DNA from: Acholeplasmatales bacterium
GTDB lineage: Bacteria; Bacillota_I; Bacilli_A; Acholeplasmatales; Anaeroplasmataceae
Direction of reading: 5' to 3'
Assembly (NCBI GenBank): GCA_017449215.1
Contig: JAFSJY010000044.1
Location: 1-64,000 of the forward strand
Length of the DNA stretch: 64,000 bases
Part shown: piece by piece, positions 35,915-43,499 of the stretch
Numbering within the stretch: the stretch's first letter is position 1
How the letters are laid out: each line of letters opens with the position of its first letter
Made by a program: the position numbers and the translations under genes
Notes under the pieces: model-generated
Seen by the model: the letters and a program-made list of their open reading frames with translations, nothing else
Told to the model about the DNA's origin: nothing
Databases searched by the model: none

Positions 35915-35943
35915 ATTATAATAAAAGAAAGGGATTATTTCAA
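35915..35943 (-). promoter_or_regulatory. Promoter of the SGNH operon, with -35 in the upstream terminator
   Basis: TTGAAA (35938-35943), 17 bases, TATAAT (35915-35920). TTGAAA covers part of the 5' arm and loop of the terminator hairpin at 35931-35947. Confidence 0.65.
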
Positions 35944-35947
35944 TCCC
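35921..35947 (-). terminator. Terminator of the RNase III-like gene
   Basis: GGGATT/AATCCC stem with a GAAAT loop and a TTTCTTTTATTAT tail, starting at the stop codon. Confidence 0.7.
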
Positions 35948-36936
35948 TAATCTTCCATATTATCGGCTTCGTCACTAGGGACTTCCTTGCCTAATACATA
36001 TAATAGCATTCTATAAGCTGCCTTATTTTTAGCAATCTTCTTATCCTTATCAAAAGCCTTAAATTTCTTATCAATTTCATCAATCATACAAGTTGATAAG
36101 AATCCACCATTCTTTTCAGTTGTATGATAATCTGCGAATGAGAAATAACCCTTTAAGGTTAAATTATCTAATGTATCCATTGCATTAGTTTCACTATATT
36201 CACCAGCATCCTTAACAATCTGAGAAGTCATATTATTTTCTGTTAAATATTTATAAGCTGCTTGTGCTGCTAATAATCTAGATTCAGAATGGTTTACACC
36301 AACTCCATCAAATTCTAAATTATTTAATGTTAATTCACATTTAATATAGATATTACCGCTCTTATCCTTAACTCTCTTATATACATAGCTAGGCATAGCT
36401 TGGCCTGTTTCAACACAATAATTAAATAATAAAATTGTTGGATGAGAATCTATATTACCAAATCCATAATTTAACCAATACTCAACATCTAGCATAAATG
36501 AAACAACATTTGAAATAATTGATACATTCCAATTACAATCTAAAGCTACCGCACCAATAATTGCCTCAAATAGCTTTCTATCAATATCAACTAATTCTCC
36601 ACCCTCAAATGAGCTTACATATTCAGTTAATCCTAATACATTAACTGATACTCTATATAGGTCTTGTGATGTTAAATTATCTAATAAATCATAAATTACT
36701 GTATTTTCAATTGTAGTTTTATAGGGAGAACCATTTTCATTAGTACCATAATAATTCATTAATGTTACTGTTAATGCATAATTAATAGCTCTTTTACCAA
36801 CAATTCTTAAAATTCCATTTGATCTAGGATCATTACCATCACCTGGTTCAAAATCAAATGCTTGAGCAAGTAATGCATCATTATTGAATTTATATTGAAT
36901 TGTTTTTTCAATTATAGAGATTATATCCTTATCCAT
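35947..36936 (-). CDS. RNase III-like protein with lost catalytic residues and two dsRNA-binding domains
   Basis: A 329-residue protein. Residues 5-150 align with the RNase III fold: IQYKFNNDALLAQAF at 13-27 and FEAIIGAVALD at 123-133. The signature NERLEFLGD is NGILRIVGK (40-48), so residues equal to E. coli E38, E41 and D45 are G41, R44 and K48; D114 is K121; only E117 remains, as E124. It should therefore not cleave RNA. A dsRBD spans about 164-232 (HPTILLFNYCVETGQAMPSY...AAQAAYKYL) and a second about 252-316 (ending KKIAKNKAAYRML). It probably binds structured RNA without cutting it. Strong promoter, GGAGG site and own terminator. Confidence 0.75.
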   Translation of the reverse strand: MDKDIISIIEKTIQYKFNNDALLAQAFDFEPGDGNDPRSNGILRIVGKRAINYALTVTLMNYYGTNENGSPYKTTIENTVIYDLLDNLTSQDLYRVSVNVLGLTEYVSSFEGGELVDIDRKLFEAIIGAVALDCNWNVSIISNVVSFMLDVEYWLNYGFGNIDSHPTILLFNYCVETGQAMPSYVYKRVKDKSGNIYIKCELTLNNLEFDGVGVNHSESRLLAAQAAYKYLTENNMTSQIVKDAGEYSETNAMDTLDNLTLKGYFSFADYHTTEKNGGFLSTCMIDEIDKKFKAFDKDKKIAKNKAAYRMLLYVLGKEVPSDEADNMED

Positions 36937-36965
36937 AATTTACCTCCAAAAAAACCAACTATTTC

Positions 36966-36994
36966 ATTATATCACGTAATACACATTTAGTCAA
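36966..36994 (-). promoter_or_regulatory. Promoter of the RNase III-like gene
   Basis: TTGACT (36989-36994), 17 bases, TATAAT (36966-36971) with TGA before it (extended -10). One of the strongest promoters in the window. Confidence 0.8.
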
Positions 36995-40823: not shown

Positions 40824-40845
40824 TCCTTCTACCTCCATATAGTAT

Positions 40846-40957
40846 AAATGAAAAATCCTTCTCTACCAAGGTAAAGAAGGATTACTTAATCCTAATTAAT
40901 TCCTCGGTAGGAGATTAAGAGCTTTCGCTCGCCTACTGTCTTAGGCTTATTTGTTTT
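40846..40957 (-). ncRNA. L10 leader-like attenuator RNA upstream of rplJ
   Basis: The 112 bases between rplA and rplJ, read on the minus strand, form a GGCGAGC/GCTC arm with flanking CAGTAGGC and CTACCGAGG segments. They end in a strong hairpin AATCCTTCT/AGAAGGATT followed by TTTTTC, which looks like an intrinsic terminator. This is the layout of the Firmicutes L10 leader, where L10-(L12) binding favours termination. The secondary structure was judged by eye. Confidence 0.75.
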
Positions 40958-41650
40958 TTACTTTGCGATTGTATCAGAATCGACTTTAACTCCTGGACCC
41001 ATTGTAGATGCAACAGATACGTTCTTAACATAAGAACCCTTAATTGTTGAAGGACGAGCCTTTATTAATGCATCGTAAATAGTCTTTAAGTTTTCAGCAA
41101 GCTTTTCAACACCGAATGAAACCTTACCGATAGGTAATTGGATGTTTCCAACCTTGTCTGGACGGTACTCAACCTTACCTGCTTTGATTTCCTTTACTGC
41201 CTTAGCAACATCCATAGTTACTGTACCAGTCTTAGGGTTTGGCATTAAGCCCTTAGGTCCTAGAACACGTCCTAGCTTACCTAATTGACCCATCATATCT
41301 GGTGTAGCTACGATAACATCGAAATCAAACCAACCTTGGTTGATCTTGTTGATCATATCTGCTTCTCCAACATAATCAGCGCCTGCTTCAGTTGCTTCTT
41401 GTTGCTTTGCACCACGGCATAATACTAAAACCTTTTGAGTTTTACCAGTACCATTAGGTAATACAATAGCACCACGAATATTTTGTTCAGCTTTACGTGG
41501 ATCAATGTTTAAGCGGAATACTACATCAACTGTTGCGTCAAATTTAACTGTTGAAGTTTTAATTGCTAAATCTAAAGCTTCCTTTGCATCGTAAGCCTTT
41601 GACTTCTCAACTAACTTAGCAGCTTCAACGTACTTTTTTCCTCTCTTCAT
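40958..41650 (-). CDS. rplA: 50S ribosomal protein L1
   Basis: A 230-residue L1 that binds the mobile 23S stalk near the E site. [58 protein letters not shown] and [23 protein letters not shown] segments (shortened here) are typical. AGGAGG lies before the ATG. It is separated from rplK by 73 bases that hold an L1-site-like hairpin. Confidence 0.98.
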
Positions 41651-42332: not shown

Positions 42333-43499
42333 TTAAACCTTCTTTAATTTTACCTTTCCGCCTACGCCCTTAGAGAATCTCTTTACTGCTTCTAAAGCAT
42401 CTGGGTCTCCCTTTTGAGCAGCTAAACGATACCATTTATAAGCATCTTCTACGTTGATTAAGGATACACCAATACCCTTTTCTAGACAGTCACCTAAACG
42501 ATACATTGAATATGGATCACCAAGCTCGGCAGCCTTTTGCCACCAGAATTTAGCAGTAACTAAATCTGGGTCCATATATTCATCCTTAGGATCAGTTAGG
42601 TTTTCAGCTAAATGCACCATGGCATCAACATTACCAGCATTTGCGGCCTTAGTCCACCAGCTAATTGCTGTTTGATCATTCTTTAATACACCATCACCCA
42701 TATGATAGCACTCAGCTAAGGCATTTTGAGCAACTGGGTTACCAGCATTTGCGGCATCAGTAAAATATGATACTGCTCTTTTCATATCCTGCTCAACATC
42801 TGTACCTGTATAATATTTCATACCAAGCTTAACCTGAGCATTAATATTACCTGCCTCTGCAGCCTGCTCATAGAAGTTTAAGGCAAGACCAGTACATTGA
42901 AGTGTACCTTCACCCTTAGCATAACAATCTGCAATTTTTTCCATACATACAGGGTCACCATTTCTAGCACCCTCTAGATATAATGTAGCCGCACCCTTCA
43001 TCTTACCTAAAAGCTCATAGCATTCTCCAGCTTCTCTTTGAGCATCAACAATACCAGATTTTGCAGCATGTACTAACCACTGAGTAGCTCTTGGTACGTC
43101 CTTAGTGATACCTTCGCCTCTTAAATAAGCTAATCCTAAATAATATTGGCTTAGAGGATGAGCATATTTTGCGGCTTCAGTAAACCAGGCAACAGCCTGT
43201 GTAGAATCCTGCATAATACCTGTACCAGTTAAATAGCTCATACCAACCATATAGGCAGCCTCTACATTTTTATTAGTTGCTGCGGTCATATATAATTGGA
43301 AGGCTTCCTTAACATTCTTAGTACATCCCTTACCATTATATAAAAGGTCTGCTAAATAATATTTTGCATCATAATTTAAAACATCGTTTTTAACAACTGT
43401 TTCAAACATTGGATAGCATTCCTTAAATTTTTCATCATTATATAATTCCAATGCACGCTTATATACACCACGGTATTGGTTTATTACATACTCAGCCAT
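42333..43499 (-). CDS. Sel1-like/TPR repeat protein
   Basis: A 388-residue soluble solenoid of about nine Sel1-like repeats of ~36 residues. Repeats read AAYMVGMSYLTGTGIMQDST, QYYLGLAYLRGEGITKD, AQVKLGMKYYTGTDVEQD, AQNALAECYHMGDGVLK, MYRLGDCLEKGIGV and so on, each with A-x2-LG-x2-Y and GxGV/GI. An N-terminal TPR-like segment (10-45) and a basic tail (KGVGGKVKLKKV) flank them. Such proteins act as binding scaffolds. There is no signal peptide, unlike secreted Sel1 proteins. It lies between rpoC and rplK with its own promoter and terminator; the partner is unknown. Confidence 0.85.
   Translation of the reverse strand: MAEYVINQYRGVYKRALELYNDEKFKECYPMFETVVKNDVLNYDAKYYLADLLYNGKGCTKNVKEAFQLYMTAATNKNVEAAYMVGMSYLTGTGIMQDSTQAVAWFTEAAKYAHPLSQYYLGLAYLRGEGITKDVPRATQWLVHAAKSGIVDAQREAGECYELLGKMKGAATLYLEGARNGDPVCMEKIADCYAKGEGTLQCTGLALNFYEQAAEAGNINAQVKLGMKYYTGTDVEQDMKRAVSYFTDAANAGNPVAQNALAECYHMGDGVLKNDQTAISWWTKAANAGNVDAMVHLAENLTDPKDEYMDPDLVTAKFWWQKAAELGDPYSMYRLGDCLEKGIGVSLINVEDAYKWYRLAAQKGDPDALEAVKRFSKGVGGKVKLKKV

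Follow-up and report, generated by a model that had tools for sequence, protein, structure and literature searches.

An Anaeroplasma pseudo-RNase III as a candidate binder of structured RNA

What use can a bacterium have for an RNase III once the protein is unable to cut? The question, which is directly testable, is raised by a gene in a 64,000-nucleotide stretch of DNA (called here the window) from a wall-less gut bacterium with relatives in the genus Anaeroplasma. The open reading frame runs on the minus strand from an ATG at 36936 to a TAG at 35947 and encodes 329 residues with a net charge of -17 and a pI of 4.6; phage relatives, described below, are more acidic still. The gene and its domains are laid out as follows.

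35947 to 36936, minus strand: coding sequence of the pseudo-RNase III, 329 aa; 11 orthologues; dN/dS about 0.12
36463 to 36936, minus strand: RNase III-like (former endonuclease) domain, residues 1 to 158; weak TIGR02191 match; AlphaFold2 model with Foldseek matches to 1jfz and 2ez6
36229 to 36450, minus strand: dsRBD1, about residues 163 to 236; best Pfam dsrm stretch 169 to 231; alpha-beta-beta-beta-alpha in the model
35989 to 36189, minus strand: dsRBD2, about residues 250 to 316, with a KKxAK contact motif; second dsrm stretch; TRBP in Foldseek
36943 to 36947, minus strand: ribosome-binding site GGAGG, from the sequence

Against NCBIfam TIGR02191 the protein scored 25.6 bits (E = 7.8e-6, residues 10 to 230), which is well below the equivalog cut-off of 166 bits, and Pfam dsrm (PF00035) matched two stretches with 29.9 bits, which passes the gathering cut-off of 23 bits. 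A model was built with AlphaFold2 using the 11 orthologues as input (pLDDT 83.8, pTM 0.71). A Foldseek search with this model returned the RNase III of Aquifex (2ez6, E = 8.8e-10) and that of E. coli (E about 1e-9). Further matches were 1jfz, an endonuclease domain on its own (TM 0.79 on the target), 1rc7, the solved complex of Aquifex E110K with dsRNA, mL44 of the mitoribosome (E about 1e-6) and TRBP with its tandem dsRBDs. Because the model matches solved RNase III structures, the protein clearly belongs, by its predicted fold, to the RNase III superfamily. Structure prediction had been proposed as a check in the initial annotation, and it returned an RNase III fold (1jfz, 2ez6); the two dsRBDs claimed there are borne out by the two dsrm stretches, the model and the TRBP match. 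Some RNase III landmarks are degraded, namely the helix that follows AF(T), the HSS motif and the GKG(D/E) loop. KKxAK is found in dsRBD2 and not in dsRBD1, and the GPxH loop contact is absent from both. In several orthologues the KKxAK of dsRBD2 is gone, and in most subclades one dsRBD stays basic or retains its Lys contacts.

The active site was examined in an alignment with the rnc of the same genome and 27 intact relatives. E. coli E38, E41, D45 and D114 correspond to G41, R44, K48 and K121, and E124 (E. coli E117) is the sole catalytic acid left. The rnc of the same genome, which had been suggested for comparison, gives exactly these changes (E to G41, E to R44, D to K48 and D to K121, with E124 kept), and the four substitutions named in the initial annotation are thereby confirmed. 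N78 replaces the equivalent of E. coli E65, and the equivalent of F42 is I, N or T.

36814 to 36816, minus strand: G41, equivalent to E. coli E38; E in 7 of 11 orthologues
36805 to 36807, minus strand: R44, equivalent to E. coli E41; R in 10 of 11
36790 to 36795, minus strand: K48-R49, the old GD motif (E. coli D45 and the next residue); invariant in 11 of 11
36574 to 36579, minus strand: R120-K121, second half of the metal site (K121 is E. coli D114); R120 invariant, position 121 K or R in 11 of 11
36565 to 36567, minus strand: E124, equivalent to E. coli E117, the retained acid; E or D in 10 of 11

Of the 160 positions of the RNase III-like domain, just four carry a basic residue in every one of the 11 orthologues: the old metal ligands 48 and 121, which are acidic in nearly all of the 27 intact relatives, and their neighbours 49 and 120. 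Judged from these alignments, the metal site is charge-inverted rather than just eroded.

Single changes at these positions in E. coli RNase III leave activity that is weak or low, or an enzyme that is inactive (table in PMC8708148), and loss of catalysis in the window protein is therefore a safe deduction from its sequence. The changes E117K, E117A and E117Q abolish cleavage in the E. coli enzyme while dsRNA binding is retained (PMC8708148). In S. aureus, E135A strongly compromises cleavage, and the mutant protein, which still binds many structured RNAs, has been used for RNA capture in vivo (PMC3386247). The window protein would resemble E. coli rnc70 (E117K) and S. aureus E135A in binding RNA without cutting it efficiently, but each of these carries one engineered or selected change and one dsRBD. 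The initial description of the protein as catalytically dead is well supported by sequence, phylogeny and fold, from which we infer the absence of cleavage. Housekeeping cleavage is covered, since an ordinary rnc of 229 aa that keeps every catalytic acid (L001) lies elsewhere in the genome. With this canonical enzyme (TIGR02191) the window protein shares an endonuclease fold followed by a dsRBD, and the signature helices are recognisable; it differs in its replaced metal acids, the loss of the E65 equivalent, the degraded HSS and GKGE, the second dsRBD and a more acidic composition.

All 11 orthologues belong to the genus Anaeroplasma, one of them to Anaeroplasma bactoclasticum ATCC 27112; they go down to 31% identity and form a single clade with 100/100 support. 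The pseudo-RNase III is thus present in 11 of 28 genomes of the genus, some of the others being incomplete. In five closer pairs, Nei-Gojobori dN/dS was 0.09 to 0.12 for the whole gene and 0.05 to 0.13 for the RNase III-like domain; in more distant pairs dS is near or above 1, close to saturation, and the ratios are rough there. On these values, purifying selection on the RNase III-like domain is strong. A functionless, decaying pseudogene or mobile remnant would account for the lost catalytic residues and the patchy distribution, but it is strongly contradicted by a dN/dS of about 0.1, by the open frames of the orthologues and by the conservation of promoter and synteny described below, and we find it hardly credible. 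A sequencing or annotation artefact is ruled out by the open frame, the orthologues and the selection.

RNase III works as a dimer. The main rival to the reading that we prefer starts from this point: the protein would be a non-catalytic partner or antagonist, forming heterodimers with the cell's Rnc, or with the RNase III of an infecting phage, where its nearest intact kin lie, and the half-active or inactive dimers would nick their substrates or ignore them. A precedent exists in the trypanosome editosome endonucleases, in which one active and one inactive RNase III are paired (PMC9508840). It would also fit that, in at least four of the five closer pairs, dN is lower in the RNase III-like domain than in dsRBD2. 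However, the equivalent of F42, which is required for activity in E. coli, is I, N or T, the divergence from Rnc is strong, and a further candidate partner, a second dead subfamily, is present in some genomes only and absent from the source genome. We consider a partner or antagonist unlikely.

This second dead subfamily belongs to the same genus (L014, L015, L016, L018, L022, L055, L070 and L071). Its RNase III-like domain is collapsed, and its dsRBD2 has a strictly conserved SKKxAKR contact. Four genomes carry it together with a charge-inverted protein, and the source genome has the charge-inverted protein only, which excludes here an obligate heterodimer of the two dead subfamilies. The two dead groups were recovered as one clade with a support of 69/44. 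Because they may form one clade, catalysis may have been lost once or twice, and two independent losses, as a firm reading, are weakened by the possible single clade.

Where did the family come from? The top-scoring intact relatives are RNase IIIs with tandem dsRBDs in which E/E/D/D/E is kept (L110-L121, L011, L047-L049). Phage members of this family match PHROG 28637 (unknown function), and on IMG/VR phage contigs the RNase III gene mostly lies behind a tandem pair of large serine recombinases, with tail and holin genes nearby. Copies that are identical or nearly so turn up in more than one family of the order. Of 395 genomes sampled across the class, 19 had matches, and those further members outside the window's order whose sites are readable are intact. 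In the tree, the charge-inverted clade and the tandem-dsRBD family are split from the rnc rows with 100/100 support; a placement of the charge-inverted clade with rnc is disfavoured, though formally not rejected (p-AU 0.075). The likeness between the window protein and the phage or mobile family consists in full-length homology and domain order. The acids of that family are intact, however, and many of its members stand behind paired serine recombinases, whereas the window gene lies in the chromosome, has been passed on vertically and is dead. Since the nearest intact relatives have tandem dsRBDs, the second dsRBD would be ancestral and no novelty of the window protein. The term 'paralogue', used in the initial annotation, holds in a broad sense; it fails in so far as the nearest intact kin are this phage or mobile family and not the host rnc. 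Going by the tree, the loss of catalysis most likely started from the mobile family. Dead members were absent from the phage and viral collections searched, and a phage origin of the window gene itself was set aside because no dead member was seen in phages or viral contigs.

The surroundings of the gene are those of a chromosomal locus. Its neighbours in the window are psd, an LPG_synthase_TM flippase, an MTS methyltransferase, rplL, GDSL and DUF3737, and no phage or recombinase association was seen among the neighbours checked. At six loci (the window included), across the three subclades, the gene has rplKAJL and/or the adjoining ybxB/rsmC-like MTS methyltransferase gene as neighbours, at up to about 5 kb. 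Direct neighbours differ between subclades, and no conserved operon partner was found among the orthologous loci. The gene order suggests that the gene has been inherited vertically at a stable place in the chromosome, outside any mobile context. Two other features were seen in this region of the window: the leader of ribosomal protein L10 (RF00557), which precedes rplJ (40841-40963, minus strand), which is an ordinary autoregulatory element, and a gene for a Sel1-repeat protein between rpoC and rplK (42333-43499, minus strand).

Signals for transcription flank the gene closely.

36989 to 36994, minus strand: -35 hexamer TTGACT; arrangement common to 11 of 11 loci
36966 to 36971, minus strand: -10 hexamer TATAAT with a TGn extension and a 17-nt spacer; same arrangement at 11 of 11 orthologous loci
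35930 to 35948, minus strand: intrinsic-terminator-like hairpin at the stop codon; 1 found against 0.3 expected

The promoter (TTGACT-17-TATAAT, with TGA before the -10) lies 58 nt upstream of the start. All 11 loci have such a promoter with TG, scoring 10 to 12 out of 12 and placed 58 to 74 nt upstream, though the flanking sequence has diverged; dinucleotide shuffles equalled the observed score in 0 to 5% of trials per locus. It ranks joint best among the 29 window genes with an upstream gap, tied with the promoter of the rplK operon. The strong extended -10 promoter reported initially is thus real. Because promoter and terminator-like hairpin flank the gene, a one-gene transcript is suggested. 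Codon adaptation is moderate (20th of 57 window genes). Strong expression of the pseudo-RNase III is likely, as far as such signals can tell.

Locus and promoter also bear on a second rival, in which a captured phage RNase III was domesticated against phages or mobile elements and serves as a dsRNA sensor, a decoy or a dominant-negative form against phages that carry the active enzyme. Such a role would suit the position of the nearest intact kin on phage contigs, behind twin serine recombinases, and the presence, in one Anaeroplasma genome (G007), of an intact relative between a type II restriction-modification system and Gabija genes. The window gene itself, however, stands outside any defence island, by housekeeping genes, is apparently monocistronic and has a constitutive-looking promoter; PADLOC, run on the window protein, gave no match (0 families). 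We rate an anti-phage factor as rather improbable.

The reading that we prefer, to which we give about an even chance, is that of an Anaeroplasma-specific pseudo-RNase III that binds structured RNA without cutting it; on the sequence data, it is the best explanation. Because the metal pocket is replaced by a fixed positive patch, the protein probably grips RNA without cutting. The protein would still fold like RNase III and would probably dimerise as RNase III does, and structured RNA would be laid across the old cleavage valley. There K48, R49, R120 and K121, with R44, would stand in for Mg2+ and hold the backbone phosphates without hydrolysis, and the dsRBD with retained contacts (dsRBD2 in the window protein) would assist the grip. 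As a constitutive binder, the protein might stabilise structured RNA or, as already suggested in the initial annotation, shield or present it, for example by guarding sites from the real RNase III of the cell.

The same basic residues can be read otherwise. dsRBDs can mediate protein-protein contacts, and the protein could be a pure scaffold that has lost RNA binding, the Lys/Arg cluster pairing with E124 to stabilise the fold after the loss of the metal. This would agree with an acidic protein, with dsRBD contacts that are degenerate in several orthologues and with an acid at position 124 in 10 of 11; yet most subclades keep one dsRBD basic or with Lys contacts, and four fixed basic residues exceed the need of one retained acid. 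We hold a pure scaffold for improbable.

Structured-RNA binding without cleavage can be extended to a tentative and more specific proposal, which we see as possible, with the odds somewhat against it. The protein would represent a bacterial class of clamps that hold structured RNA independently of metal. It would have arisen by domestication of a phage tandem-dsRBD RNase III whose two-Mg2+ site became a fixed Lys/Arg phosphate grip; constitutive in Anaeroplasma, it would protect or present cellular RNA as a bacterial analogue of the organellar pseudo-RNase IIIs. The weak points of structured-RNA binding in general are the acidity of the protein, the absent GPxH contacts, the variable KKxAK, the degraded RNase III landmarks, the moderate codon adaptation and the patchy presence. 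Moreover, K48, R49, R120 and K121 might form salt bridges with E124 instead of contacting RNA, which would likewise count against it.

That RNase III domains can be inactive is established for mitochondria, chloroplasts and trypanosomes. The mitochondrial mL44 (MRPL44) shares with the window protein an RNase III-fold domain and a dsRBD, and has a structural, RNA-bound role; it is, however, an organellar ribosomal protein with one dsRBD, whereas all that points from the window protein to the ribosome is its fold likeness and the proximity of rplKAJL. The KREPB-type editosome proteins and chloroplast RNC1 are likewise natural RNase III pseudoenzymes with RNA-related roles, but they are eukaryotic, have other partner domains and arose by independent losses, and charge inversion is established for the window clade only. 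In the open-access literature (subscription papers were outside the scope), we found no description of a bacterial inactive, pseudo- or paralogous RNase III, or of an Anaeroplasma RNase III. The case comes with a clear evolutionary series: relatives that are intact and borne by phages, the charge-inverted clade and, in the same genus, another clade that is dead.

The phage-carried tandem-dsRBD RNase IIIs are themselves an apparently undescribed family, no description of them having been found in the open-access literature. In IMG/VR contigs (L110-L123, for example L112:4787-9047), the intact RNase III repeatedly follows phage structural and lysis genes, behind two serine recombinases, and looks like a cargo gene. 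An ORF of 469 aa without Pfam match, which begins before the phage RNase III gene has ended (L111:9068-10474, also in L114 and L116), is a possible operon partner. A defence-island-like stretch in another Anaeroplasma genome (L077:597-12516) comprises a type II methyltransferase, two related type II restriction enzymes, the intact RNase III, and GajA and GajB; here a 404-aa ORF with DUF5677 overlaps the intact tandem-dsRBD RNase III and precedes GajA/GajB. A distant RNase III-domain protein, RUMAL_RS17030, is encoded on plasmid pRUMAL01 of Ruminococcus albus (L124:7560-9080); it is longer by about 150 residues at its N-terminus, two of its regions resemble dsRBDs, and its GD motif reads GN.
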